Shown here piece by piece: positions 15,547 through 64,000 of a stretch of 64,000 nt of DNA. The stretch covers positions 1,860,001 to 1,924,000 of the forward strand of contig CM055822.1 in the NCBI GenBank assembly GCA_029582265.1, in the 5' to 3' direction. Under the pieces are notes generated by a model. That model worked only from the letters and a program-made list of their open reading frames with translations, ran no database searches and had not been told where the DNA came from. The position numbers were made by a program, and so were the translations under genes. The stretch is from Zoroaster sp. YZ-2022. Taxonomy: Eukaryota > Echinodermata > Asteroidea > Forcipulatida > Zoroasteridae. The first letter of the stretch is position 1. Each line of letters begins with the position of its first letter.

Positions 15547-18111
15547 TCAACAATTAATACTCATCAATATATCTTCTCGGTGGCTTAATTGCTCTACCAC
15601 TTCTACTTTGTGGGATATTTGTTTGTGTTTTTTGACGAGTTGTTGCGGTCCTTTGTGGAATACATGTTCCAAGTCTGGTGGTTCTAAAGTTGGAGGGTTT
15701 TCTTTGGTTTTGAGAAGATGTTTTCTGTTTCTTCTCAATTTCCCTGTGGGCGTTGTCACAACATAGGATCTAGGTTCTTGTGTTTTCTGAGTAACAACAG
15801 CTGGTTGCCAACTTCCATTTTTCTGTTGCACCCTGACAGTATCACCTATGTTCAGATTTGGTAGGTTTTTGGTGTTTCGATCGTAGTACATTTTTTGTAC
15901 TGTTTGTCTGTTGATCAGTTGCTGTTTGATGTTGGTGTGAACTTTTGGTTCCAACAGCTTTGTGTGTGTGGGAAGAATGCTCTTTGTTCTTCTACTCATT
16001 AGCAACTGACTTGGTGATCCAAGGTTCTGATCTGTGGGTGTGTTTCTGTACTCCAATAGACTTAAATATGGATCTTGCTTGCTTTTGATTGCTTTCTTTA
16101 ACAACTGCTTTACCGTTTGAATGGTTATTTCTGCCATTCCATTGGACTGTGCATACCCAGGGCTAGATTTTACATGTTTAAATTGCCATGCTTGGGCAAA
16201 TTCTCTGAATTTCTGACTACTGTACTGTGGTCCTCCATCTGAGATCACTTGATCTGGAATTCCATGACGAGCAAATATGCTCTTCAGTGCAGTGATTACA
16301 CCTTTGCTTGTAGTGTCGTCTAGCAACATGATTTCTGGATATTTGGAATAATAATCCACTACTATCAAGTATGTTCTTGTACCCAAATAGAATAAGTCTG
16401 TTCCCACTTTGGACCATGGACGGTCTGGTGAAGGATGTGGATTCATTGGCTCTTTCATGTTGGATTTTCTGTGTTCTAGAGAGATTACACACCTACTGCA
16501 CACATCTTCTATTTGTTTTGACATACCTGGCCAATACATTGTGTCCCTTGCTCTAGCTTTACACTTAATTATGCCTAAATGACTACTGTGTATCTTTTCC
16601 AGCATTTCTTGCTGCAGTGCTTTGGGAACTATTATCTTTTCTCCTTTGAACAGTAAATCTTCAGCCACATGGATTTCTTCTCTAAAATCCCAGTATGGTC
16701 TTATCTCATCTGGTACATTTTGTTTTGTTTCGGGCCAGCCATCTAACACTGTGCTTTTGACTTTCTTTAGTGTTTGGTCTCTGCGTGTTGCTTCTTTAAA
16801 TTCTCTGAGTTTGTTTTCACTCATGGGTAAGTTTGAAACCAACATGTGCACTTGGATTTCTATTTCATTATTATCATCTGCCATTTGTTCGGTAGGCAAG
16901 TATGCTCTTGATAGTGTATCAGCTATTATCATTTCTTTGCTGGTACCAGGTTTGTGCACAACTTTTATGTCATATTTCTGTACAGCTAACAGAAGTCTTT
17001 GGATGCGTGGTGGCGCTGTTGACAGAGGTTTTTTAGTGATTGCCTCCAAGGGTTTATGATCACTCAGTACAGTCACGTGCCTTCCGTATATGTACTGGTG
17101 GAATTTTTGGCAGCCAAATTTTATGGCAAGCGTCTCTTTTTCTATTTGTGCATAGCCTTTTTCTGTTTGTGTGAGCGCTTTGGACGCATATGCCACTGGA
17201 TTTCCTTCTTGTGTCAACACAGCTTCCAACCCATCTTTACTGGCATCTACTGACAATTCTACTGGTTTTCCTACATTATAATATTTAAGTGTAGGGGCCC
17301 TTGTTGCAAGGTTTTTCAGATTGTTGTAGGCATCTTCTTGTTCTTTTTCCCAATGCCATTCTGTTTCATTTTTCAACAGAATTCTGAGGGGTGCTGATGT
17401 TTCTGATAGGGACGGTATAAATCTCCCAATGTACTGAATCATTCCCAGAAATCTTTCTAAGTCTTTTTTAGACTGAGGAGTTGGCATTTCCAGAATGGCT
17501 TTGATTTTGGCTTTGTCTGGCTTAATGCCTTCATGGGATAGCTCATGTCCAAGGTATTGGATTTCTGTTTGTGCTATTTTGCACTTTGCTTTGTTCAGTT
17601 TTATGTTGTTTGTTCTTGCTAGATCTAGAACTTGTCTTAACCTTGCATCATGTTCCTCTCTTGTTTTACCATACACTAGGATGTCATCTATGTAACAAAT
17701 TGCTCCATTTACCTTTTCCAGTATTTCTGACATTCTTTTATGAAACACTTCTGATGCACTATGAATACCGAATGGCAATCTCAGGAATTTGTACCTCCCA
17801 AAGGGTGTGTTAAAAGTACAGAAATCTGAACTCTCTTTGTCTAACGGAATCTGCCAGAAGGCATTGTTGGCATCCAGTATGGAGAAATACTGTGCCTGGT
17901 CTACTTTACTGACTATTTCCTCGATCACAGGTATGTGATAGTGCTCACGTTTTATTGCCTGATTCAACTCTTTGGGATCTAGACAGAGTCTAAGTTTGCC
18001 ATTTGGTTTTTCTACAATCACCAATGAATTTACCCAATCTGTAGGGTAGTCAACTTTTTCTATGATTTTCTGTTCAACTAAGTATGTCAAGTTCTTCTTT
18101 GAGTCTATCAC
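15547..18111 (-). CDS. pol: Gypsy Pol: reverse transcriptase, RNase H and integrase
   Basis: This 854-codon open frame copies the element RNA to DNA and inserts it. Visible parts in order: RT (FSILDANNAFWQI near residue 80; the catalytic YIDD at 140-143), RNase H (VELSVDASKDG near 285), an H-H-C-C zinc domain (about 510-545), and the integrase core with its first Asp in GTDLFYLG, second in ISDGGPQYSS and the Glu in NGMAEITIQ (about 575-662). The C-terminus resembles a short Gypsy-type tail. The first ATG is not the natural start: RT should continue from the protease ORF at 18074-18778, which overlaps in another frame, so an indel lies near 18080-18110. It is otherwise uninterrupted, which suggests fairly recent insertion. 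Confidence 0.92.
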   Translation of the reverse strand: MIDSKKNLTYLVEQKIIEKVDYPTDWVNSLVIVEKPNGKLRLCLDPKELNQAIKREHYHIPVIEEIVSKVDQAQYFSILDANNAFWQIPLDKESSDFCTFNTPFGRYKFLRLPFGIHSASEVFHKRMSEILEKVNGAICYIDDILVYGKTREEHDARLRQVLDLARTNNIKLNKAKCKIAQTEIQYLGHELSHEGIKPDKAKIKAILEMPTPQSKKDLERFLGMIQYIGRFIPSLSETSAPLRILLKNETEWHWEKEQEDAYNNLKNLATRAPTLKYYNVGKPVELSVDASKDGLEAVLTQEGNPVAYASKALTQTEKGYAQIEKETLAIKFGCQKFHQYIYGRHVTVLSDHKPLEAITKKPLSTAPPRIQRLLLAVQKYDIKVVHKPGTSKEMIIADTLSRAYLPTEQMADDNNEIEIQVHMLVSNLPMSENKLREFKEATRRDQTLKKVKSTVLDGWPETKQNVPDEIRPYWDFREEIHVAEDLLFKGEKIIVPKALQQEMLEKIHSSHLGIIKCKARARDTMYWPGMSKQIEDVCSRCVISLEHRKSNMKEPMNPHPSPDRPWSKVGTDLFYLGTRTYLIVVDYYSKYPEIMLLDDTTSKGVITALKSIFARHGIPDQVISDGGPQYSSQKFREFAQAWQFKHVKSSPGYAQSNGMAEITIQTVKQLLKKAIKSKQDPYLSLLEYRNTPTDQNLGSPSQLLMSRRTKSILPTHTKLLEPKVHTNIKQQLINRQTVQKMYYDRNTKNLPNLNIGDTVRVQQKNGSWQPAVVTQKTQEPRSYVVTTPTGKLRRNRKHLLKTKENPPTLEPPDLEHVFHKGPQQLVKKHKQISHKVEVVEQLSHREDILMSINC

Positions 18112-18778
18112 TTAGTGCAAATGGTACTCGTCTTGGCGGATGGACTGTCGGTGTAGCGTTTTCATCAACCTCGATGTGATGGTATTTGTTGAAGCATCCT
18201 GTGCCATCGAATACATCTGCATATTCTTTGGTGATGTCAGCCTTTTCCAGATTGTCTATGCGCGTGATCAGGTGCATTTTGACTGCTGCGTCCAATCCGA
18301 TTAGGTTTTGTCCTTTTTCGACAACGATGAAGTCAAGTTTGTGCGAGATTCCACGATGGCATATTTTTATGACACATTTGCCTACGACCGGGATCCTTGT
18401 TCCGCTGTAGTTTATCAATCTCGCAGATGTGCGTGTAACTTGTGGATTTCTTTTTATCTTCTTGAGAGTGCTCTCCGAGATGATGTTTGCTTGTGCTCCA
18501 GTGTCTATCTTCAGTTGTAGACATTTGTGATTCACCTTTAGGTTGACGAACCAGTCTTTTGTATTTTTACTTTGTTTCTTGGGCTCGTCTGTTGTCCCCA
18601 CTTTACCGATGAAAAGTTCTTCCATCTCTTCTGAAGCCATGTGTACTGCCTTGGCTCTGCAGCATTTTGCAAAGTGATTAGGCTTGTTGCAGCGAAGACA
18701 GGTCTGTCCATAGGCTGGACAATTTCGTATGGCATGTGTTGTTCCACACTTGCCACATGTCCGTTTGTTTGTAGCCAT
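18074..18778 (-). CDS. Gypsy nucleocapsid zinc knuckles and aspartic protease
   Basis: This 234-codon frame starts with two zinc knuckles (CGKCGTTHAIRNC, then CLRCNKPNHFAKC), which bind element RNA, and continues into a retropepsin with the active-site motif LKIDTGAQANIIS. Its end (SDRLKEELD) is the usual linker before RT and then runs into a stop because of a frameshift. Upstream it is in the same frame as the gag ORF (18830-19285), separated only by an in-frame TGA at 18830-18832 and 17 codons. Gag-NC-protease therefore look like one reading frame broken by a nonsense codon. The alternative, translation by stop read-through, cannot be ruled out from sequence. Confidence 0.85.
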   Translation of the reverse strand: MATNKRTCGKCGTTHAIRNCPAYGQTCLRCNKPNHFAKCCRAKAVHMASEEMEELFIGKVGTTDEPKKQSKNTKDWFVNLKVNHKCLQLKIDTGAQANIISESTLKKIKRNPQVTRTSARLINYSGTRIPVVGKCVIKICHRGISHKLDFIVVEKGQNLIGLDAAVKMHLITRIDNLEKADITKEYADVFDGTGCFNKYHHIEVDENATPTVHPPRRVPFALSDRLKEELDILS

Positions 18779-18829
18779 TGGACCTGGGCTTTTTTGTTTT
18801 TTTTGTTCCTTTATGTTTTTGTTTAGACT

Positions 18830-19437
18830 TCACTCCAATTTTATGGACTTCTGTTGTCTCATCTGATTTTTCTGCTTTGTTACTGATCCTTTCTCTATGC
18901 TGAGACTTTCAATCTGCATCTTGCTTGCCTCTGCAGCACGACAGATCTCTATAGCTTTGGTCAAATCTATGTTGCTTTCTCTAAGCATTCGCTCACGGAC
19001 AATATCACTGGTCACACCACATATTATGTTGTCCCGTATGAGACTGTCTGTTAAGTCACAAAATTCACAATCTTTGGCCAGCGTTTTCAATGCTGTGACA
19101 AAATGGTCAACGGTCTCACCTTCATGTTGACTCCGTTTGAAGAATTGATGTCTCAGGAATGCTTGTGATGTGTTGGATTTGCAGTGTTCTGCAAACTTTT
19201 CCTTGACTTTAGCAAGCTTTTCTTTGTCGTCCGGTTGCTCCCACTTGAAAGTGTTGTACAATCGTAGCGCGTCTTCTCCTGCCATGGTTATAGGAACATT
19301 GCCGTTTTCTGATTTTCAGGCTTCGTGTTTTTCCCCGTGGCGAGCATGTATAGGTCATATCTTTGTACAAACCATTTGTAGTTGTCCGCTAGGTTTCCCT
19401 GCAATGACAATCCTTTTGGAAGCTCTATTTTATCCAT
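18830..19437 (-). pseudogene. gag: Gypsy Gag (capsid), frameshifted
   Basis: An ATG at 19437, soon after the primer-binding site, opens a Gag-like frame (MDKIELPKGLSLQGNLADN). It hits a stop near 19290. The rest, from 19285, continues in a frame offset by one indel and contains the retrotransposon Gag core (a helical region ending VRERMLRE). A TGA at 18830-18832 then separates it from the zinc knuckles. Gag would assemble the element's particle in the cytoplasm. The two breaks indicate decay. Confidence 0.8.
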
Positions 19438-38010: not shown

Positions 38011-38013
38011 AGA

Positions 38014-38297
38014 GAAGAAGAAGAAGAAGAAGAAGAAGAAGAAGAAGAAGAAGAAGAAGAAGAAGAAGAAGAAGAAGAAGAAGAAGAAGAAGAAGAAGAA
38101 GAAGAAGAAGAAGAAGAAGAAGAAGAAGAAGAAGAAGAAGAAGAAGAAGAAGAAGAAGAAGAAGAAGAAGAAGAAGAAGAAGAAGAAGAAGAAGAAGAAG
38201 AAGAAGAAGAAGAAGAAGAAGAAGAAGAAGAAGAAGAAGAAGAAGAAGAAGAAGAAGAAGAAGAAGAAGAAGAAGAAGAAGAAGAAGAAGAAGAAGA
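38014..38297. repeat. (GAA)n trinucleotide tract, ~95 units
   Basis: About 284 bp of nearly uninterrupted GAA. It creates artefact ORFs of poly-Glu, poly-Arg, poly-Leu and poly-Phe on both strands. Such pure, long GAA/TTC tracts can form triplex (H-) DNA. Confidence 0.97.
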
Positions 38298-39700: not shown

Positions 39701-41286
39701 CTGAGGTGCTATCTATTTAGTATATTTATGTCTGAGGTGCTATCTATTTAGTACATTTATGTTTGAGGTGCTATCTATTTAGCACATTTATGTCTTAGGT
39801 GCTATCTATTTAGCACATTTATGTCTGAGGTGCTATCTATTTAGCACATTTATGTCTTAGGTGCTATCTATTTAGCACATTTATGTCTTAGGTGCTATCT
39901 ATTTAGTACATTTATGTCTGAGGTGCTATCTATTTAGTACATTTATGTCTGAGGTGCTATCTATTTAGCACATTTATGTCTGAGGTGCTATCTAATTAGC
40001 ACATTTATGTCTTAGGTGCTATCTATTTAGTACATTTATGTCTGAGGTGCTATCTATTTAGCACATTTATGTCTTAGGTGCTATCTATTTAGTACATTTA
40101 TGTCTGAGGTGCTATCTATTTAGTACATTTATGTCTGAGGTGCTGTCTATGTAGCACATTTATGTCTGAGGTGCTATCTAATTAGCACATTTATGTCTTA
40201 GGTGCTATCTATTTAGCACATTTATGTCTGAGGTGCTATCTATTTAGTACATTTATGTCTGAGGTGCTATCTATTTAGCACATTTATGTCTGAGTTGCTA
40301 TCTATTTAGTACATTTATGTGTGAGGTGCTATCTATTTAGCACATTTATGTCTGAGGTGCTATCTATTTAGCACATTTATGTCTGAGGTGCTATCTATTT
40401 AGTACATTTATTATCTGAGGTGCTATCTATTTAGTACATTTATGTCCGAGGTGCTATCTATTTAGCACATTTATGTCTGAGGTGCTATCTATTTAGTACA
40501 TTTATGTCCGAGCTGCTATCTATTTAGCACATTTATGTCTTAGGTGCTATCTATTTAGCACATTTATGTCTGAGGTGCTATCTATTTAGTACATTTATGT
40601 CTGAGGTGCTATCTATTTAGCACATTTATGTCTGAGGTGCTATCTAATTAGCACATTTATGTCTTAGGTGCTATCTATTTAGTACATTTATGTCTGAGGT
40701 GCTATCTATTTAGCACATTTATGTCTTAGGTGCTATCTATTTAGTACATTTATGTCTGAGGTGCTATCTATTTAGTACATTTATGTCTGAGGTGCTATCT
40801 ATTTAGCACATTTATGTCTGAGGTGCTATCTATTTAGCACATTTATGTCTGAGGTGCTATCTATTTAGTACATTTATTATCTGAGGTGCTATCTATTTAG
40901 TACATTTATGTCTGAGGTGCTATCTATTTAGCACATTTATGTCTGAGGTGCTATCTATTTAGTACATTTATGTCCGAGGTGCTATCTATTTAGCACATTT
41001 ATGTCTTAGGTGCTATCTATTTAGCACATTTATGTCTGAGGTGCTATCTATTTAGTACATTTATGTCTGAGGTGCTATCTATTTAGCACATTTATGTCTT
41101 AGGTGCTATCTATTTAGCACATTTATGTCTGAGGTGCTATCTATTTAGCACATTTATGTATGAGGTGCTATCTATTTAGTACATTTATGTCTGAGGTGCT
41201 ATCTATTTAGTACATTTATGTTTGAGGTGTTATCTATTTAAATTTTAGCACATTTATGTCTGAGGTGCTATCTATTTAGTACATTT
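39701..41286. repeat. 31-bp satellite, ~51 units, with higher-order periodicity
   Basis: The unit GAGGTGCTATCTATTTAG plus YACATTTATGTCT is repeated without break for about 1.6 kb. Units differ at a few diagnostic sites (CTGAGG/CTTAGG, GTA/GCA, ATTTAG/AATTAG). A 32-bp variant (CATTTATTATCTGAGG) recurs 466 bp apart (40411, 40877), and an AATTAG variant likewise (about 40180, 40646), so 15-unit blocks were duplicated. Confidence 0.95.
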
Positions 41287-54397: not shown

Positions 54398-54409
54398 TAT
54401 ACTATAAAA
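54398..54409 (+). promoter_or_regulatory. TATACTATAAAA motif upstream of the zinc-finger gene
   Basis: The same 12-mer occurs in the perfect repeats before the genes at 63234 and 63494. Here it lies about 112 bp before the ATG at 54521. Confidence 0.5.
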
Positions 54410-54520
54410 GTATTGTAGATGCGTAGATTGAAATTTTTAATCTTAAAAAACGATATTGGTTTTAGTCGTTTAAAAAATGAAATAACGAATTAATTTTATC
54501 TAGTATTATATTAAGAAGAA

Positions 54521-54880
54521 ATGAATAAATATTTATCAAAAAGTTTGAGAGGAGGAATAGTTATTCCATGTGAATGGCTTTTAGTTGGTAAAACAGAAAA
54601 GTGTTATAGACTAAGCGTGCGTGGTGATGTATTTTGCCCGCAACATATGCAACGTATCCGACACGGACATAGTATACCGACTCCATGTAGAAGATGTAAA
54701 AAAGGTACAAAAACAGCGACATATTTATGTACGAAATGTGCAAAAATATTAAAATTAGAAAAAATTATGAATTTAAAGTACATTGAAGGAAGAGCAAGAA
54801 GAAATTATAATTTAGTGATGAAAGAGTTGTTAGAAAAAATGACACCGGCGCAGCCGCTAGGCGTAGACGCTCGTTTATAG
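54521..54880 (+). CDS. Small Cys/His zinc-finger protein of the virus-like element
   Basis: 119 residues, intact. Cysteines and histidines are arranged as C-x10-C-x9-CPQH (about residues 17-42), followed by two CxxC pairs, CRRC and CTKC (about 61-80), so two zinc sites are likely. The C-terminal third is rich in Lys/Arg and Glu and probably helical (RRNYNLVMKELLEKM). Zinc-ribbon proteins of this size in DNA viruses often bind nucleic acid or act in late transcription, but nothing here fixes the role. It is the leftmost gene of the element, with an AT-rich leader and a TATACTATAAAA motif upstream. No break is seen, in contrast to the larger genes. Confidence 0.6.
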   Translation: MNKYLSKSLRGGIVIPCEWLLVGKTEKCYRLSVRGDVFCPQHMQRIRHGHSIPTPCRRCKKGTKTATYLCTKCAKILKLEKIMNLKYIEGRARRNYNLVMKELLEKMTPAQPLGVDARL

Positions 54881-54985
54881 TTTTTTATAAATAAATTTAA
54901 AAATTAAAATTATACGGTGGAGGTCGCGAAGCGGGTTGCGAAGCGTGTTGATTATTATTATAATAAGATTTATCTACGGTAAAGT
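54881..54985. terminator. AT-rich convergent 3' region
   Basis: A 105-bp spacer between two convergent genes, with AATAAATT on the + strand just after the stop and a 'gcgaagcgggttgcgaagcg' direct repeat. It could serve polyadenylation of both genes. Confidence 0.35.
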
Positions 54986-55625
54986 TTACTTTAAATTCAT
55001 AATTTTTTCTATAAGATCTTTTTTTAATTTATCATCGATAGGTTTTACATTTGTTTTATCGCTATGGACGTCATTTTTAAATGAAAATTTAGTACGAATA
55101 TTTTCTTTCATTTGAGAAAATTTATCTCGCTCTTCACAGATGAGTAAAAATTCTTCTTGACTTATAACGCCGTCTTCAATCGCTTTTGAAATGTGGTTTT
55201 CGATAGTGTTAAGTTTAGATGATGCTAAAACTCTAATCTCATCGTGTTTTTTAGCTTTTTTAAATAATTTATATTTCGCGTATCTGAGAGCAAACGCCGC
55301 ACCACCTAACCCTAAAGCTAAACCTTCTTCAGCAAATCCGACGGGTGATGCTATAACTGTCGCGATGCTAGCGATTCCGATAGCTCCTGCTCCCATACAT
55401 CCCAATTCCGCCATTGTTTCTACGATAGAACAAGTGTTAATGATTTTATTATATTTTTTTATATACGGCCTCGCGTTCGTTTCTTTCGGCTCGTAATTCT
55501 TTTTGAATCTCGTTGATTTTTTGTAAACGAAATGCGTTGACATTTAACACTTGTACATTGTCTGAAGTATTTAGCATCATACCCTTTAAATTTGGACATA
55601 TTTTTGTTTCGGTAGAGGCGCTCAT
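54986..55625 (-). pseudogene. Membrane protein with a glycine-rich hydrophobic domain, frameshifted
   Basis: The likely start is ATG 55625 (after 'agaaata'), giving a charged, helical N-terminus. The frame then shifts near 55455-55465 at an A/T run, and the body continues in the frame ending at 54986. The middle has a long Gly/Ala-rich hydrophobic region (GAGAIGIASIATVIASP and a second stretch, GLALGLGGAAFAL), probably membrane-inserted, followed by a charged helical part (KLNTIENHISKAIEDGVIS) and a basic tail. The family is unknown to me by name, but a similar layout occurs in Polinton-like elements. A virion membrane or pore role is possible but unproven. One indel breaks it. Confidence 0.6.
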
Positions 55626-55662
55626 TATTTCTATTAATAATACAAGATTATATATATATTTT

Positions 55663-56127
55663 TTAAATCAATGGAAAACTTTCAACTTTTATATCGAAAC
55701 AGATTCCCGTGTTTTTAGCGCCAAAAAATATCGCTTGTACAAAGACTTCTTGACCTTCGGTCTTGAAGCAAATTCCACATTCTAAAACCTGTGGTACAGC
55801 GGTAAAAGAAAGTTGTACATTAAATTCATCGGTAGTGGAGAATATAATTATAAGCTCGATTGGCTACAAAATTGCGCTTTGACGTGATTGAATAAGAATC
55901 ATTTTCACCTTTGATTCTTTTCGCAAAAATTGAACAGTATGCTGGTTCTCTATCGAGGAAAAAACAGACTCGATGTTTATGGGTAGTCTTCCCATTAAAT
56001 TTATCAACGGTATCGTTTGGTAAATTTCCCTCGTAGCGATACGCCCATGATATTCAAATGTGGATGTATCGTCATTACTGGATGAAATTGGTTCGCTCGT
56101 AAAGCCCGGACCGTAAATACTCGCCAT
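55663..56127 (-). pseudogene. Likely minor structural protein, internal TAG
   Basis: ATG 56127 opens MASIYGPGFTSEPISS and a frame that runs to a TAG at 55864-55866, then continues in the same frame for 66 more codons to the TAA at 55663-55665. Both halves read as ordinary mixed beta-type protein, so the TAG is a late nonsense change in one gene of about 153 residues. It follows the gene at 56149-56841 on the same strand with a 21-bp spacer, as in a structural operon. By size and position it could be a minor capsid or cement protein; I see no diagnostic motif. Confidence 0.55.
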
Positions 56128-56148
56128 TTGTATTTACTATTTAAATTT

Positions 56149-56841
56149 TTAAAATTTAATTTCGACGGTTATAATGGCAGGCATACCGTGATTATTAATG
56201 TCTTTACCGCTCGAATCTTTAATTTTAAAACTCAATTCGTTTAAAGTGCCAGTCTTGAGATTTTTTCGTAATGGATTAGAATATTCTATCCAGGTACTTT
56301 TCCCAAATTTTACATCTTGTCGGGGTAAAACGTTTAAAATACTCGAAGGTTTACCGTTGTAAAAATTTTCGCTAGTAGAAATTTGATCGCAATGAATGTA
56401 CATTAATTTAAAAGGCTGCAAATCAATTTTCCCTTCATACGTTCCCTCGCTTAATAATTCATCCGATAGTCCGACTAAATTGGCTAGTCCGGATGGCAAC
56501 TTGATTTGATACCTGGGATCATTAATTTCGAGTAAAGATTCACCGGTTGTTTCATTAATGTTGTACGTTATCCAGGCCAGGGTGTATTATGTACGATAAT
56601 ATCGATAATTTGTTTTATATTGTAAAGTCCAGGTCTGATGGTCGTAGAATGATCGGTCGGTTGACCTCCAACCGCACCAATTTTACGGCGCAATATTTTT
56701 TTATTTTTTCCGCACATTATAGTAGCCGACCCAAAAGTTGACGGTCATTAACGATATCGTAAGATTACCATCTCGATTATCGATTGTATTATCTAATATG
56801 ACGGGCATGTCAAAATTTTTAATTTCAATCGTATGATGCAT
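56149..56841 (-). pseudogene. Candidate minor capsid (penton-like) protein, two compensating frameshifts
   Basis: ATG 56841 sits directly after TTTATAATAAA. The frame is lost near 56697-56712 (a T/A homopolymer), continues in a second frame, and returns to the first frame near 56583-56592, so the two indels cancel. The intact C-terminal part (116 codons, to 56149) is beta-rich and ends in the pattern 'LSFKIKDSSGKDI' plus 'ITVEIKF', as in viral jelly-roll structural proteins. The assignment to a penton/minor capsid protein is inferred from the pattern and from neighbours. It is divergent from the gene at 56887, with a 45-bp spacer that carries the same motif on both strands. Confidence 0.55.
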
Positions 56842-56852
56842 TTTATTATAAA
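56842..56852 (-). promoter_or_regulatory. TTTATAATAAA start-site motif (- strand)
   Basis: It directly precedes ATG 56841. An identical copy faces the other way at 56876-56886. Confidence 0.55.
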
Positions 56853-56875
56853 CTAAAACAAAAAAATAATATTAG

Positions 56876-56886
56876 TTTATAATAAA
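56876..56886 (+). promoter_or_regulatory. TTTATAATAAA start-site motif (+ strand)
   Basis: It directly precedes ATG 56887. The same 11-mer is found before ATG 59932 (- strand), and a shortened form (ATAATAAA) before ATG 62976. Confidence 0.55.
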
Positions 56887-58212
56887 ATGTTGATTCCTTT
56901 AGCATTTCAGAGTAATATAACAAAACGGTATCGACAATCAGAAAATTTTAAAGCACAGACTTTTACGTCTCGCGACTTGTCTATTCAAAAGATTTACACA
57001 TCCAAAAACGAATTTGTACAAGTAGAACTCGCCGATCCTTTTAGCAAGTACAAGTTGCCTCACGTCAATAGCGACGAGATTGTAAATAGCTGGATTTATA
57101 ATCCGCTCAAGTTTTATCAGAATCAAATGAATTTTGTAACGTGATGCAGTACGACGGGATGCGGAGTGAGTTATAAACATTTACTCCATTCGAATCCGAT
57201 GATTAGTAGTTTTTTCAAATTTCACGTTTATTATCAAATTAGACGATTGCTTAAAGAAATGAGCTGTCCAGCGTATTTTCTAAAATTTTTGAGCGCCTTT
57301 GAAAACAATATAGACATTGGCGCGTATAATAAAATATGTAGAGACTTTCACATCTCGCCGGTATCCGATTGGAAACAACAACGAGATAAGTACTCGGGAG
57401 GATTGGGAATAGCCTATTGTTACGACAACGGTTACATTCCGGTACCTGGGAAAAACTATGATAATTTAAGCCTGCACGTTCCGTTCTCTAGTGAGAACGA
57501 TTATTCAGACGCGACAAAGATGGGCTTTGGAGATCATCCCTCGACGTATACGGTCGCCTACATTTCACAATCTCCCGAGTCCGAGCTCGCTTGGGTTAAT
57601 TTTATACTCGACGAGTCTCGGGGTTTTACGGATATAGGTATAGAACGAATCAACGACTCTATAAGAACATACGTTTACGCGTTATTGGGAGCTCAAGCTC
57701 AAGCTAAAAGTGGAATTCTTACAGTTGGTACCGGTTTAGATGCGAAAAGAGAATTCTTAAATATTCTCGAGGCTTCGATCGATTCTCCGATCGATTTACA
57801 ATCTTCTATTCAACGATATCAAGATTCTTTACAATACGCTCGATCGCAGTTAAACTTTGTCATCGGAGAAGGTTTATACCTTATGCAATCCGACATGAAT
57901 TTGCGAATAGGTACGTACGTTGGATACAACAACAATATTTTAATCGCGACGCCTCATTTATCGTTAGGATCGAATCAAGACACAAATTCAACGCCAGTTC
58001 CCCCACCTCCACCGACTAGTCAACTCGGTCCACCAACATCTATAGATGTTCAGCAACAAAACGATACGTCATCTATCGATCAATCTGTCGATACTCAACC
58101 AGACACACCATCATCTATCGATACTCACCAAGAGGAAAACAATTCTCTAATCGTCGGTCTCTCGATTTCTTTTGGGTTAGGCGTCATTATTTACGAGTTG
58201 TTTTTAAGATAA
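56887..58212 (+). pseudogene. Large virion-associated membrane-anchored protein, internal TGA
   Basis: One frame of 442 codons from ATG 56887 to TAA 58212, interrupted only by a TGA at 57142-57144. The first part is 85 residues; the main part (from 57166 if it used the next ATG) is 348. The protein has a mixed globular region with an Ala-rich helix (YALLGAQAQAKSG), a Pro-rich linker (PVPPPPPTS), a Ser/Thr/Asp/Gln-rich spacer with repeated 'SSID', and a single C-terminal transmembrane helix (IVGLSISFGLGVIIYELFL). I cannot name the family. Size, tail anchor and neighbourhood suggest a structural or membrane protein of the particle. Its end overlaps the convergent gene at 58191. Confidence 0.6.
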
Positions 58213-59477
58213 GATAAAACTAAAACTCCAACTCCGGTCACAAATAGCCACACATGTTCCGCCACCCATCCTACCGCCGATGAAAGTTGAGTCAATAACC
58301 AACTCAATACTCCTCCGATGATACCCGGTAGAGAAGCTAAAGCTTTTAATCCAAGTGTCTTTAACAGATTCGATAGATTTTTGAGAGATTTTTGTATCCA
58401 GTCTTTTACACCACCGCCACTCGGTGTAGGCGTAGGTGGACTAGGTGGCGGTAAAATCGGTTTTACGCTCGCTACGATCGAAGCGACAATGGTACGATCG
58501 AAGCGACAATGGTGAGACTAATCGCCGTTAATATACTGACTATCGTTACGCCTTGTTCTCTAAATAAAGTTTTAATTTTTTCGCCCAACGTAACGTCTCT
58601 TTCCAACATTTTATTAATCGTTTCTTTGATTCTATTGATTTGACTACGAAGAACGCGATCTTGCGTACCCGCAATCTCTAATCTCGCTCGTTTTTCGTCT
58701 TGTTTTTCTCGCAGCTGTTTACGTAGCTCTGCGGTTTCCTGTTTATCTTCATCGTCTCGATCTCGAGCGCTTACGTATCTTTTTTCAAGATCGGAGATTT
58801 CTTTGTCGAGTGCGCTCAACTTGGCTAAATTATATTCGAGTTGGCCTCGAGTCTTTTGCAAGGCTTTATCGAGACCCAACAGTTCTCGCATTGGAAGTCC
58901 ATCCGTTTGCGTTCCTTCATCGTCTTGAAGAATAGAAATTGTTTCATCCAAGTCTTGCCCTACATTCGTCGCGGCTTGCGGTAAATCTTGCATCTCAATG
59001 CTTTCAGTATTTGTTTCGTAGAGATTACTAACTGGTGCTTGTAACTTTTCACGAGCATTTTTCGAGATCTTGGTAGCATAATCAACTATACCTAGATCGC
59101 CTCGGATGAAATCTAAGCCGTACCTTTGTTTAATAGTAGATATAGCTAAAAAAAAATCCCTTTTCTTTCACGTTATTTAACGAGATTCTTTCCCCGTTTT
59201 GTTTTATAAAATAAAGTTTCGAGTCTTTGAGTATGAATTTACCGTAGTCTTTCGCAATGGGCTCGTATAAAACTTGCTTGTAAAAATCATCTACAGCCGT
59301 TTTAACGTTTTCTTTATTCAATATGGGTATTTTTTCGGCGGCTGTCACGTCTCCTTCATACGCTGTATGATACGTCACCGGCAGCGTTATAGGGTCCATC
59401 TCAATTTCTTCGCCATCATCATCATCTTCTTGATCGCCTAATAGCGGATCAAAATCATCGTATTCTCCTTCCGCCAT
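58191..59477 (-). pseudogene. Coiled-coil and transmembrane structural protein, broken twice
   Basis: ATG 59477 opens an acidic N-terminus (DDDDGEEIEMDP). The frame shifts at an A/T8 run near 59148-59157. The middle (58472-58993 in the track of its frame) is a long coiled coil rich in Glu/Lys/Arg (ALDKEISDLEKRY, then LRKQLREKQDEKRARLE), followed by a hydrophobic segment (VTIVSILTAISLTIVAS). There a 20-bp tandem duplication (58474-58493 / 58494-58513) shifts the frame again; beyond it a Pro-rich linker and more hydrophobic segments run to the TAA at 58191-58193. The original length would be about 420 codons. The layout suggests a membrane-spanning virion protein; function unknown. Confidence 0.65.
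58474..58513. repeat. 20-bp tandem duplication inside a viral gene
   Basis: ACGATCGAAGCGACAATGGT occurs twice in a row. Its length (20) is not a multiple of three, and the reading frames on its two sides differ by exactly this offset. Confidence 0.93.
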
Positions 59478-59488
59478 ACTATTTACAA

Positions 59489-59932
59489 TTAGTTTTTATC
59501 TTTTTTTAATAATGTATAACTCGCGTAGCCTACTACCGTCATGCCAATAATAACGAATAACATTTCTCTCATTTTTTGATCTTCGCTAGGAACGTAAAAA
59601 TCTTCTAGTTTAGGTTCGTCGTATAAATTTTGCGGTAAATTAAATCGACTTCCGGTAACGATATAATATTCATTCATCGCTTCGTTTATATCGGTAAAAG
59701 TTTTTTTAGCGTGCGCTTCTTTCTCGAAGCGCACATTCATGTAATTTAGATATTTCGAGCGCTCTTTAGACCATTCGTCTCTGGCTTTGGTAAGTTGTTC
59801 TAGTGCTAAATCGTGCCTCTTTCGTTCTTTTTCAGCATCGTTTTAACGTAAACTGGAAAATAAAAAATTTGATCCGGAAAAAGCGAGTGCGTTTACTACT
59901 GCGCCTCCAATCACCATCGCTATAGTCACCAT
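59489..59932 (-). pseudogene. Conserved viral membrane protein, internal TAA
   Basis: ATG 59932 follows TTTATAATAAA directly. One frame of 147 codons runs to TAA 59489, interrupted by a TAA at 59843-59845 (codon 30). The N-terminus is small and hydrophobic (MVTIAMVIGGAVVNALAFSG), the middle a charged helix, and the C-terminus a second hydrophobic helix (MLFVIIGMTVVGYASYTLL) with a Lys-rich end. The gene is 11 bp upstream of the coiled-coil protein on the same strand and divergent from the capsid gene, with only about 36 bp between the two ATGs. A virion membrane or assembly role is likely from context only. Confidence 0.6.
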
Positions 59933-59943
59933 TTTATTATAAA
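59933..59943 (-). promoter_or_regulatory. TTTATAATAAA start-site motif (- strand)
   Basis: It lies directly before ATG 59932, within the 36-43 bp divergent spacer shared with the capsid gene, whose side reads 'tttaataaaataa'. Confidence 0.55.
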
Positions 59944-59968
59944 CATGTTTTTTAATTTAATAAAATAA

Positions 59969-61184
59969 ATGTTACATGTTAAATATGAGCGAAGCATTTG
60001 GACACAAACTAAACCCGTACAGAATATTGAGAGAACCGTTAGGAATAAAAGGAATTTAGGAAAAGACGACGTCATCGTTCCAGGGTCGGCTCGGTTGGCT
60101 TTTAACATTGCTATCGAATCAGAAGATGATGATACTAGAACGATCGTACATAATATAGGAAGAGCCATCGTAAAAAATATATCAATCAAGATCGAAGGAA
60201 ATGAAGTGTTTAGTTTAGACGATGCAGACGTGTTCAATTGTTTCAAAGATAATTGGTTGACGAAAGATCAACTCGACAATCTAGCGTATCAAGGAATTAA
60301 ATCTGCTAACGTAACTAAATTAAGAGTAGGCGCCAGCGACGGTAATGTTTCAAACAACCAAGGAAAAGACAAAGCCGTCGCGGATACTTATAAAAATAGA
60401 TATTGCATTCCGTTAGACTTTGAACTATTGACCGATCATCAACCGTATTATCAAGCTGGGTTAGCGGATCGGTTAAGTTATGAACTCACGTTTAATAAAT
60501 ATTCTAAAGTGATTAAAAGCTCTGACGATAATGCAAAATATATCATAAGCGGAATTTCTTTAGAATACGAGGTCGTCACCAATGAGATTCTCGCCACAAC
60601 GATTAAAAATCAATATAGCAACAAGTTGGGGATATTGTACGACAGAGTTTTGAGACATAGCGTCAAACCGCTAAACAAACTCGAAAAAAACGTGGAATAT
60701 AAATTTAAATACGCCGGCAAAAAGCATGAAAGGAATATTGTTTTTATTCAAAGAGCCCGGCGTAAAAGAAACATGGAAATTTTATAATCCAAAAATCGAT
60801 AAAGTTTCGATTACTATAGAAGGAGTTCCCAATCAACTCTACGCGCAAGGGATGCGCAGGTATCAACACTGGGAAGAAATTCAAAAATATTTCGGAGATT
60901 CGAGAGAAGAATTTGGTATGACGGTAACTAAAACTTTAAATCTGTCGAACGTCAAACAAGTTGATTATTTACTAGAGAAATACGGTTTGTTTTTAGATAT
61001 GAGAAGCAGTGATGACAACAAAATTCACGGAAGCGGTAGAAAAGTACAAAACTTATCCGAAGGAATTACCATTCAACTCGAAAAAGAGGCGGAAGCCGAC
61101 GGCCAATTATACTGCTACACCTTTATCATCATGGACGCTCAACTCGTTATCGAAAAAGGACGATTTCCATCCGTAACATATTAA
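59969..61184 (+). pseudogene. Candidate major capsid protein (double jelly-roll), frame broken
   Basis: Two overlapping ORFs (59969-60787 and 60726-61184) form one protein of about 400 residues. The C-terminal part reads FYNPKIDKVSITIEGVPNQL and ends MDAQLVIEKGRF, beta-rich throughout, as in double jelly-roll capsid proteins of Polinton-like viruses. The downstream frame equals that of an ATG at 59976 (MLNMSEAFGHKLNPYRI), which fits a natural N-terminus better than the ATG at 59969. So the frame appears to shift out near 60050 and back near 60720-60780. The assignment rests on pattern, size and its place next to the packaging ATPase. It would build the icosahedral shell. Confidence 0.68.
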
Positions 61185-61185
61185 C

Positions 61186-61828
61186 ATGTTGTCTATTATT
61201 AAAAACATGTTACCTAAATATCCGCACGCCGCCTTAATTTGCGGACAAACTGGGTGTGGAAAAACCGAATTTGTTTTAAATTTGTTACAAGAAGAATATT
61301 ACATGCATTTTGAATATATCGTAATATTATGTCCGACCGTCGCGGTAAATCAAGCGTATCAAAATAGAAAATGAGTTTGGAACGACGAGCGAGTCTTTGT
61401 CATTGATTTAAACAATTTATCAATCAACAAAGCGATAAAAATTCATAGCGATGTTTTAAAAGGAGAGGAAGCGTTGTTTATCATCGACGACTGTAGCGCG
61501 AATAAAGAAATAAAGTATAGAAAATACGACGAAAATAATAAATGTTTGATTACTTAATTAGCTTTTAGCGGTAGACACGTCAACCACAGCTGTTGGATTC
61601 TTTCACAACAGCGTGATGAAAGATTTTAGAGAGCAAGTCAAGTGGGTGTGTTTATTTTATTGTAAAGATAGAGACTCGTTCGAAAATTGTCTTCGAGAAA
61701 ATGACGTCATACCGACTCAAGAGTTGAGAATAGAAATGCGTGAAAAATTAAAACGAGTCAAACATAGCAAGTTGATTTTAAAAACGGATCAACCTACCGA
61801 TTTTAAAATAGTAGAACAGGTTGACTAG
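61186..61828 (+). pseudogene. Packaging ATPase (A32/FtsK-HerA type), multiply broken
   Basis: This would pump DNA into the particle. Walker A is clear (GQTGCGKTEF, residues 20-29), then Walker B-like ALFIIDDCSA and a conserved LAFSGRH block with a Gln/Ser-rich sensor region (WILSQQ). The C-terminal ORF (from 61613) has WVCLFYCKDRDSFENCLREN. The frame is interrupted by TGA (61372-61374), TAA (61555-61557) and a shift near 61605-61613. Length would be about 213 residues, usual for Polinton ATPases. It starts 1 base after the capsid stop, so the two were probably co-transcribed. With the catalytic domain split in three, this copy cannot be active by normal translation. Confidence 0.85.
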
Positions 61829-62100
61829 GTTACTTGTAGGTTACTTGTAGGTTACTTGTAGGTTACTTGTAGGTTACTTGTGGGTTACTTGTGGGTTACT
61901 TGTAGGTTACTTGTAGGTTACTTGTAGGTTACTTGTAGGTTACTTGTAGGTTACTTGTGGGTTACTTGTGGGTTACTTGTGGGTTACTTGTGGGTTACTT
62001 GTGGGTTACTTGTGGGTTACTTGTGGGTTACTTGTAGGTTACTTGTAGGTTACTTGTAGGTTACTTGTAGGTTTACTTGTAGGTTACTTGTAGGTTACTT
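61828..62100. repeat. 11-bp minisatellite, ~25 units
   Basis: The unit GGTTACTTGTA (variant GGTTACTTGTG) is repeated from the ATPase stop codon onward. G variants cluster in the middle third; one unit has an extra T (62070s). It ends at 'ggttacttgactaaa'. It lies wholly between two viral genes. Confidence 0.95.
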
Positions 62101-62131
62101 GACTAAAATATAATAAAATTTATAGATAAAT

Positions 62132-62281
62132 ATGCTCGTTGAATGTTTAGTTGGATTTAGTATAATTACAAACTGTTGCACGCTAGGTGGAGTTGTATTT
62201 TTGATTCATCAATACTCGAGCGTTAGCAAAAAATTTATAAAACCGTTATCATCATTAAAAAAAAATTCAAGTATTAAATAG
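62132..62281 (+). CDS. Small membrane protein, 49 residues
   Basis: A short ORF with one hydrophobic helix near the N-terminus (VGFSIITNCCTLGGVVFLI) and a Ser/Lys-rich tail (PLSSLKKNSSIK). An ATAATAAAAT motif lies about 22 bp upstream. It is intact, and it follows the pattern of small single-helix proteins in this part of the element. Function unknown. It is too short for a confident gene call on its own; position and spacing support it. Confidence 0.45.
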   Translation: MLVECLVGFSIITNCCTLGGVVFLIHQYSSVSKKFIKPLSSLKKNSSIK

Positions 62282-62341
62282 TATAATAGAAGATGTTGAG
62301 AAAATGTTTAACATAAATAACATATAAGAGTATTATTAATA

Positions 62342-62841
62342 ATGGAAGAAGTAGACAAAATTTTAAACGAAGAGTCAACGATACAAGTCGAAAATATCGT
62401 TGAATCAATACCGCAGTCTAATCAACGCATTGATCGACTCGTTGCGGTCGTTGCTGGAGGAGACTCTAAAAATACTTTGGTAAAGAGTATTCTGTCAACG
62501 AAATTGAAGCTTTAAATGTAATAGAGCGAGATAAATTATTCACGTGATACGAAGCGCGATTTGGTCGTGAAATGATATCTTCATTAGGTTCATCGATTAT
62601 AACTCTATACGCTAAAACGTTAGGATCGAGTTTAAAATTTGTCGATGTGATGGGTTATGAGTTTACGATCGATGACGAAGGTGAATTAATTACGGATTTA
62701 GAAAAAGATCCACTCATTTCGAGCGCTCTTTCATGCACATTATGCGAAATAAACTATAAATATGGAATATACCTGGCACCGATCACAGCGGCGCTAATTT
62801 GGGCGAAACATTTAAAAAAAAAAAAATTGTTGCGTAGATAA
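62342..62841 (+). pseudogene. Conserved viral protein with a C-terminal helix, frameshift and TGA
   Basis: ATG 62342 (after 'attattaata') opens an acidic, helical N-terminus (MEEVDKILNEESTIQVENI). A one-base loss near 62480 shifts the frame; in the corrected frame a TGA at 62545-62547 precedes a helix (ARFGREMISSLGSSIITLY). The end has a hydrophobic helix (YGIYLAPITAALIWA) and a Lys run coded by an A12-14 tract (62811-62825), a slippage hotspot; in another frame after it an acidic Asn/Gly-rich tail continues to about 62917. The gene type is one I associate with Polinton-like elements, without a known function. Confidence 0.6.
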
Positions 62842-62975
62842 TAAAGACGATGGAAACGAAAAAAACACAAGCGGCGGTATCGTTGGAGATCAGCCAAGTA
62901 ACGAAAACAACGACTAAAAAAATTTAAAATCCAAAAAGAGTCGCAGCCTGTATAAAAGCCGCTGAACATAATAAA
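62842..62975. other. Spacer with an out-of-frame tail
   Basis: It contains the possible continuation of the previous gene in a third frame (DDGNEKNTSGGIVGDQ) and the leader of the next gene (ATAATAAA before ATG 62976). Confidence 0.4.
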
Positions 62976-63200
62976 ATGATTAAACAAGAATTAAAAAAGA
63001 AATATGTAGAAGAATTCAAGTCTAACGTAAAACTCAACAACGACAATAACGATGAATCAAATACTTTCATGTACATCGGACTAGGAGTAATATGTTTTTT
63101 ATTTTTTGCTTATTACCTAAACCGCTCTAATAAAAAAACACAAGACGTTGTAAAACCATCGCCAGTAAAAAAAGAAGTTGATTTTTATGAAATGGAATAA
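62976..63200 (+). CDS. Small single-helix membrane protein, 74 residues
   Basis: Intact. A charged N-terminal helix (KKKYVEEFKSNVKL), an Asn/Asp-rich linker, one transmembrane helix (FMYIGLGVICFLFFAYYL, residues about 31-48) and a Lys/Pro/Val-rich tail ending DFYEME. Its ATG follows ATAATAAA. It is the first of three consecutive small membrane-protein genes before the integrase. Function unknown; virion membrane or assembly is possible. Confidence 0.6.
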   Translation: MIKQELKKKYVEEFKSNVKLNNDNNDESNTFMYIGLGVICFLFFAYYLNRSNKKTQDVVKPSPVKKEVDFYEME

Positions 63201-63211
63201 ACATTAAAACA

Positions 63212-63233
63212 AATATTGTCTATACTATAAAAT
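63212..63233 (+). promoter_or_regulatory. Repeated promoter-like box before ATG 63234
   Basis: With the ATG it forms a 25-bp perfect match to 63472-63496. The core is TCTATACTATAAAAT, a TATA-like box directly at the start codon. Confidence 0.65.
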
Positions 63234-63446
63234 ATGACAACGATAAATACGAATTATATTTGTGAATTTGCTTATCACGGAGCTGCAATAGGAATTATAA
63301 TTTATGTTTATAGCACGCTCTGTAATAAAACATTAAAAGCATTTGATGAATATAAAGATCAAAAAACTAAAGATGTTTTATTAGTCACCTTGGGTATGGG
63401 AGTTGTAGGATATCATCTAAGTAACAAAATTATTAATCAGGAATAA
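63234..63446 (+). CDS. Small membrane protein, 70 residues, paralogue 1
   Basis: Intact. Two hydrophobic segments (AYHGAAIGIIIYVYSTL near residues 13-29, and VLLVTLGMGVVGYHLS near 49-64) joined by a short charged loop. It shares the pattern A-x-HGA-x2-G-x5-YS and a similar second helix with the next gene (63494), so the two are tandem duplicates. Both have the same 25-bp start-site box. No known function. Confidence 0.65.
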   Translation: MTTINTNYICEFAYHGAAIGIIIYVYSTLCNKTLKAFDEYKDQKTKDVLLVTLGMGVVGYHLSNKIINQE

Positions 63447-63471
63447 GAATAGTTAATTTTTGTTTTAAAAT

Positions 63472-63493
63472 AATATTGTCTATACTATAAAAT
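63472..63493 (+). promoter_or_regulatory. Repeated promoter-like box before ATG 63494
   Basis: Identical to 63212-63233. A 25-bp perfect match upstream of two genes whose proteins differ widely argues for selection or very recent conversion of the control region. Confidence 0.65.
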
Positions 63494-63745
63494 ATGTCTT
63501 CACCAACGATAGATACGAAGGGAATCATGAATTCTGCTTTTCACGGAGCCGTCGTAGGAATGATAACCATTATTTATAGCATGGCTGCTAGAAAAGTGTT
63601 TAAAATAAAACCGGCTGATTTAGGAAAGTTGGATATAAACGACGGTCTAAAACTCACCGCGATGGTTGGGTCTGCGCTAATGACGCAAACGTGGTTAGTT
63701 CAACAACAAAAATTACCTGAAAGTATAATGAATTATAACGTTTAA
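63494..63745 (+). CDS. Small membrane protein, 83 residues, paralogue 2
   Basis: Intact. Two hydrophobic segments (AFHGAVVGMITIIYSMAA and LTAMVGSALMTQTWLV) separated by a Lys-rich loop, with a polar tail. It is a diverged paralogue of 63234-63446. The following gene is the integrase, 45 bp downstream. Function unknown. Confidence 0.65.
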   Translation: MSSPTIDTKGIMNSAFHGAVVGMITIIYSMAARKVFKIKPADLGKLDINDGLKLTAMVGSALMTQTWLVQQQKLPESIMNYNV

Positions 63746-63790
63746 AAATATTTATAAAATAATTATATAAATCTTGATATTAAATAAAAC

Positions 63791-64000
63791 ATGTCGGATA
63801 AACGTACGAGACAAAAACTAGAAAATGCGTATTATAGTCCGAAAGGATGCTGGAAAGGTTTTGGTGTGATCGATAAATTAGCTCAAGAATCTAAAATTTC
63901 TAAAAAATTAGTTCGACAGTGGTTAAAAAAGCAAGCGCTGTGGCAAATTTATTTACCGTATCCCACCTACATTCCAAGACCGACCAGTTCAAACTCGAGT
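63791..64000 (+). CDS. int: Polinton-type integrase (rve family), N-terminal 70 codons
   Basis: The ORF starts at ATG 63791 and is open to the window end. The visible part reads NAYYSPKGCWKGFGVIDKLA then KKLVRQWLKKQALWQIYLP and YIPRP, the helix-turn-helix-like head found in front of the DDE core of Polinton/Maverick and related retroviral-type integrases. The catalytic D-D-E lies beyond the window. It would insert the element DNA into the host genome. No break is visible. The assignment is strong because this head is distinctive; whether the rest is intact is unknown. Confidence 0.82.
   Translation, partial: MSDKRTRQKLENAYYSPKGCWKGFGVIDKLAQESKISKKLVRQWLKKQALWQIYLPYPTYIPRPTSSNSS

Follow-up and report, generated by a model that had tools for sequence, protein, structure and literature searches.

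A probable defective virus of the Polinton-like supergroup at the right end of a 64 kb stretch of eukaryotic DNA

Introduction

The stretch analysed here, 64,000 nucleotides of contig CM055822.1 (hereafter the window), holds at its right end, most probably, a defective integrated virus of which the left part is seen: a double jelly-roll DNA virus in the Polinton-like supergroup, of the kind called meldviruses (probability about 0.85). Its viral identity is supported by the fold of the capsid protein, modelled from an intact relative, and, narrowly, by the start of an A32-type packaging ATPase. The element is one copy of a common, little-described virus group, and is filed under kinds already known because its capsid fits the description of meldviruses and its polymerase and integrase are unseen. 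An initial annotation had proposed an endogenous Polinton-like virus with a largely uncharacterised gene set. The viral identity has held through the capsid fold and, narrowly, the ATPase, while the integrase it relied on is unconfirmed. The gene set is fairly called uncharacterised as to function, but the capsid has 1,581 public relatives and a 442-codon protein has 277.

The capsid protein

The major capsid gene (59985..61184, plus strand) is broken in the window. A 272-amino-acid piece of it (59,969-60,787) has its 1,581 relatives at E <=0.01 among 1,981 candidates; among the 120 matches listed, the best is 67% identical over 77% and most are 406-439 amino acids long. Structure prediction and search, proposed for the capsid in the initial annotation, were run on the intact relative P0001 rather than on the broken gene, with an alignment of 28 relatives. 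The model is confident (predicted local distance difference test, pLDDT, 83.8; predicted template modelling score 0.86), and Foldseek returned 193 matches in the PDB at E <=0.001, the best being a grouper iridovirus capsid (2e-16). The capsid-like gene is thus borne out by relatives, model, fold matches and tblastn placement, and its start agrees with that of P0001.

When matches were ranked with VIA-align by the single best chain per entry, the top scores went to Paramecium bursaria chlorella virus 1 (PBCV-1; 26.3, root-mean-square deviation 3.5, 343 residues aligned), faustovirus (25.0), and Singapore grouper iridovirus (SGIV) and African swine fever virus (ASFV), both at 22.7. Poxvirus scaffold proteins scored 19.4-22.2, and lower values were found for mavirus (17.3), Sputnik (17.1), adenovirus hexon (15.1), Sulfolobus turreted icosahedral virus (14.4) and PRD1 (14.1). 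The predicted fold of P0001 is therefore a double jelly-roll that appears to lean towards the capsids of large and giant viruses, though not cleanly. Sequence searches of the PDB with the capsid gave nothing significant. The Pfam family Capsid_N was matched by 24 of the 28 aligned members (E <=0.1), with P0001 itself under the curated cut-off.

This lean raises the alternative that the element is an inserted fragment of a larger nucleocytoplasmic virus, giant or iridovirus-like, rather than of Polinton type. We regard this as very unlikely. The capsid, of about 430 amino acids, shows just 7-15% identity to the entries listed in the PDB and viral fold searches. Within 10 kb lie the capsid gene, the ATPase gene, genes for small hydrophobic proteins and a possible integrase, and relatives of the capsid and of the 442-codon protein seem to occur on the same short contig in four instances. 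Nucleocytoviricota are marked by a large genome with transcription genes of its own; 9.6 kb of the element lies in the window. Moreover, Polinton PY proteins are reported also to be recognised through PBCV-1 VP54, which in Hydra was the sole significant match (PMC4028283), so the giant-virus lean does not separate the element from Polintons.

The ATPase and the putative integrase

Directly after the capsid gene lies a broken gene (61186..61828, plus strand) whose first 62 codons score 22.9 bits with Pox_A32, for which the cut-off is 22.8. This profile match gives narrow support to the packaging ATPase of the initial annotation, as a likely A32/FtsK-type enzyme. The two later pieces have no Pfam match and were assigned to the gene by reading. 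An 11-bp tandem array of 25 copies (TAGGTTACTTG; 97% matches) was found by repeat detection directly 3' of the ATPase stop (61826..62101, plus strand).

The last open reading frame (ORF; 63791..64000, plus strand) runs off the window after 70 codons. From its likeness to similar proteins, we take it to be the start of an integrase, which is likely but unproven.

A capsid, an ATPase and a possible integrase found together would also suit a strict-sense member of Adintoviridae (now Eupolintoviridae). In favour of this assignment, an Adintovirus sp. protein labelled as a penton ranks seventh among the viral fold matches (E 1.1e-16). However, this protein, the only one from an adintovirus among the fold matches listed, shares 12% identity with the query and has 663 amino acids against 432. 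The group is described as characterised by hexons that BLASTp can recognise and by a PolB with an N-terminal OTU-like domain (PMC11071296). Membership of this family is unlikely.

Evidence against the viral assignment

Several observations weigh against reading the element as a Polinton-like virus. On the structural side, VIA-align gives one SGIV entry 17.6, and two entries for ASFV 17.3 and 15.1, much like mavirus, and Foldseek template modelling scores hardly separate the groups (0.56-0.62 for SGIV crystal-unit chains, 0.59 for Sputnik, 0.54-0.55 for mavirus). The integrase of the initial annotation is not confirmed, since its 70 codons match no family above cut-off in Pfam (best E 0.025, Homez) or PHROGs at all, and no IMG/VR locus. 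In the 20 pieces given to Pfam there was no match to a polymerase, which in Polintons is a protein-primed DNA polymerase B, or to an Ulp1/adenovirus-type protease; the element continues to the right. Neither terminal repeats nor a target duplication appeared in the window, the right end lying beyond it. A search for the DNA context of the relatives gave no loci in IMG/VR or GTDB genomes. Finally, 17 of 25 pieces tested lack a hydrophobic segment, which makes the internal membrane considered below a guess.

The minor capsid protein adds to these points. A gene in three frames (56149..56841, minus strand) is a penton candidate by its likeness to similar proteins only. It has five relatives, 53-77% identical, and no Pfam match. 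Its distance from the capsid gene, about five ORFs, is also greater than usual in Polintons, in which pentons are reported usually to adjoin the capsid gene or to sit one gene away (PMC4028283).

Decay of the integrated copy

The initial annotation overlooked the decay of the genes, which affects the capsid, ATPase, 442-codon, coiled-coil and penton candidate genes. When P0001 is placed on the window by tblastn, residues 1-24 fall at 59,985-60,056, residues 49-257 at 60,053-60,679 in another frame, and residues 261-432 at 60,690-61,181 in the first frame again. The capsid gene has thus lost 24 codons (near 60053-60056) and switched frame twice, the second time at about 60680-60690. The ATPase gene is interrupted by stops at 61372-61374 and 61555-61557 and then changes frame at about 61560-61610, and the 442-codon gene carries a single in-frame TGA (57142-57144). 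A 20-bp tandem duplication (58473-58513) shifts the frame of the coiled-coil gene. In the penton candidate, the tblastn alignment of the relative P0241 crosses stops.

Isolated stops could be errors, but the lesions are of different kinds, which argues for a fossil copy rather than a sequencing slip. Erosion of this sort is common in related elements, with 96% of vertebrate Maverick loci reported as eroded (PMC8097293). It also bears on whether the locus has been domesticated, with virus-derived genes retained to serve the host. A number of small ORFs remain open, as domestication would allow, but the long genes have been disrupted by different lesions that leave no long product, and this explanation is extremely improbable.

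Extent and genomic surroundings

The dense two-strand cluster of ORFs described in the initial annotation is borne out. ORFs of at least 80 codons occupy 76% of positions 54,400-64,000, tightly packed on both strands from about 54,398 to the window end. Among 13 comparison blocks of 4 kb each to the left of 52,000, 12 have 6-58% coverage by such frames; the exception (16-20 kb, 94%) holds a Ty3/gypsy retroelement (15,550-19,315, minus strand) that matches reverse transcriptase, RNase H and integrase, its protease and gag matches falling below cut-off. This retroelement in the flank indicates a eukaryotic host. The left flank also contains a 31-bp unit repeated in tandem about 51 times (39701-41286) and a perfect run of 95 AGA trinucleotides (38013-38297).

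The element is most probably the left part of an integrated, defective virus, and the window edge cuts the putative integrase. Intact vertebrate Mavericks are reported to average about 17 kb (PMC8097293); with the cut in the putative integrase, this suggests that about half of the element may sit beyond the window. The earlier suggestion that a missing polymerase marks a distinct lineage is unsupported for the same reason.

An animal genome, as the initial annotation had it, is plausible. Four of the 240 listed relatives (P0041, P0221, P0223 and P0235) are filed under assemblies of symbiont bacteria (Candidatus Thiodiazotropha). Two of the four assembly names give a host, Notomyrtea or Lucinoma, which we take to be lucinid clams, and these relatives are probably host contamination of those assemblies.

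The 442-codon protein and a possible virion

Another widely shared product is the tail-anchored protein of 442 codons (56887..58212, plus strand). The gene named in the initial annotation is present, with its 277 relatives in public protein sets, but it is interrupted by the TGA given above. By tblastn, its start lies one codon upstream of that of its intact relative P0121. P0121 was modelled with a pLDDT of 83.6, and its predicted fold had no convincing match in the two libraries searched.

In intact members of the group, the ATPase would package DNA into an icosahedral shell of the roughly 430-residue capsid protein. The shell may be built over an internal membrane, as suggested by the frequency of hydrophobic segments (8 of 25 pieces) and by the tail anchor of the 442-codon protein, which could link membrane and shell. 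The integrase would insert the viral DNA into the genome, with replication by a polymerase presumably encoded to the right of the window. The present copy would have been inserted, then silenced or left without selection, and then decayed.

Motifs at start codons

Two short motifs occur at or near start codons in the element. The 12-mer TATACTATAAAA has three exact copies in the 64 kb, where shuffled sequences average 0.06 and none of 100 reaches three. One lies near the left edge of the element (54398..54409), and two end 1 base 5' of the ATGs at 63234 and 63494 (63221..63232 and 63481..63492), all on the plus strand. The 14-mer TTTATAATAAAATG also has three exact copies (shuffle mean 0.01), each ending in a start codon: that of the penton candidate (56839..56852, minus strand), that of the 442-codon gene (56876..56889, plus strand), which forms an inverted pair with the first, and that of a 29-codon ORF pointing away from the capsid gene (59930..59943, minus strand). 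Exact copies of both motifs are confined to the element.

The word TAAA is also frequent: of 15 starts, 11 have it at most 14 bases upstream, whereas shuffled sequences average 4.8 and reach that count in 1 of 2,000 (in a repeat run 4.6, 2/2,000). With four starts added that were at first omitted, the count is 13 of 19 (shuffle mean 5.4, 1/2,000). At the same distance, TAAA precedes 9.5% of 2,389 ATGs in the flank. Both the word and the distance were picked after inspection; of six other words, ATAAA, AATA, TATAA and TATA were in excess, and AAAA and TTAA were not.

Rather than promoters, these motifs may be no more than a translation context rich in A, or may descend from a single inherited duplication, and we consider this quite plausible, at somewhat less than even odds. 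The 30 bases upstream of starts average 87% A+T, and the excess weakens once mismatches are allowed. With one mismatch the 12-mer is matched 4 times where 1.31 are expected, and 6 of 100 shuffles do as well; with two mismatches the 14-mer has 10 matches against 3.97, a count that 1 of 100 shuffles attains. A duplicated unit (repeat D8) contains two of the 12-mers, and the inverted pair between divergent genes accounts for two of the 14-mers, leaving about two independent copies of each motif. On the other hand, the exact copies, three of each in the element and none elsewhere in the 64 kb, and the excess of TAAA speak against mere context.

A bolder possibility is that intact members carry promoters directly on their start codons. 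A normal TATA box cannot sit one base 5' of the start codon it serves. The motifs abut starts; the start of the capsid gene agrees with that of P0001, and that of the 442-codon gene lies one codon before the start of P0121. Poxvirus late promoters are described as TAAAT(G/A) overlapping the transcription start (PMC5294985), and virophages are reported to share promoters with their giant virus (PMC10945749). There could then be two promoter classes, TATACTATAAAA and, on the capsid side, TTTATAATAAAATG, read by a cytoplasmic polymerase of the large-virus type, either encoded by the virus itself or supplied by a large DNA virus infecting the same cell, instead of host RNA polymerase II. The group would combine a virophage-like lifestyle in animals with a giant-virus-type capsid, an internal membrane and a tail-anchored protein of new fold. 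This whole picture is speculative and improbable.

Other genes of the element

The remaining genes are mostly small. At the left, a 119-codon ORF (54521..54880, plus strand) is putatively zinc-finger-like; the paired cysteines behind the earlier zinc-finger call are present, but its Pfam matches are sub-threshold only. It is followed on the minus strand by a gene for a protein with one hydrophobic segment (54986..55625), which we read as a single gene whose frame changes near 55449. Its C-terminal half matches HTH_40 (PF14493) at 27.9 bits against a cut-off of 27, and this match (54986-55543) is possibly a real DNA-binding domain. An 87-codon ORF (55864..56127, minus strand) comes next.

To the right of the 442-codon gene, the coiled-coil-like protein and the small hydrophobic proteins noted initially are present. 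The former (58191..59167, minus strand) has hydrophobic C-terminal parts, and its joining across two frames is again a reading. Also on the minus strand are an acidic 115-codon ORF (59130..59477), a small protein with a C-terminal hydrophobic segment (59489..59842) and the hydrophobic 29-codon ORF (59843..59932). Beyond the 11-bp array, all on the plus strand, lie a small hydrophobic protein (62132..62281), ORFs of 57 (62342..62515) and 89 codons (62572..62841), and a small protein with a hydrophobic segment (62976..63200). The two small ORFs that follow (63234..63446 and 63494..63745, plus strand) are 77% alike over a 47-base stretch (repeat D3) and 91% alike over a 33-base leader, and look like paralogues from a gene duplication inside the virus.

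Significance and comparison with known viruses

Endogenous Polinton-type viruses are a main record of kinship between small and giant double jelly-roll viruses. The element belongs to a group with giant-virus-like best capsid fold matches, more than 1,500 public capsid relatives and start motifs resembling the late promoters of cytoplasmic DNA viruses. If the promoters hold in intact relatives, virophage-like parasites of large DNA viruses in animals become testable. The 442-codon protein, widely conserved and confidently predicted, offers a fold with no convincing counterpart in the two libraries.

With Polintons/Mavericks (Polintoviricetes) the element shares a double jelly-roll capsid, an A32/FtsK-type ATPase, a possible rve integrase and the decayed state of its genomic copy; it differs in that no polymerase is seen in its left ~9.4 kb. 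In vertebrate Mavericks the integrase is reported generally to lie in the capsid-gene module and the ATPase with the polymerase on the other strand (PMC8097293), whereas here capsid, ATPase and putative integrase are consecutive on one strand. Mavirus-type virophages likewise have a double jelly-roll capsid and are integrating elements, and promoters common with large viruses are a feature of theirs (PMC10945749). Adintoviruses, now named Eupolintoviridae (PMC12451622) and one of the established kinds beside Polintons and polinton-like viruses, share the general kinds of gene, but differ in the distant capsid described above and in their polymerase, unseen here. Meldviruses, described in a 2024 preprint, join an adintovirus-like PolB and integrase with poxvirus/megavirus-like virion proteins (PMC11071296). 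That polymerase and integrase are unseen in the element, but its capsid, with a lean towards large viruses, fits the description of meldviruses such as Meld23486 (PMC11071296).

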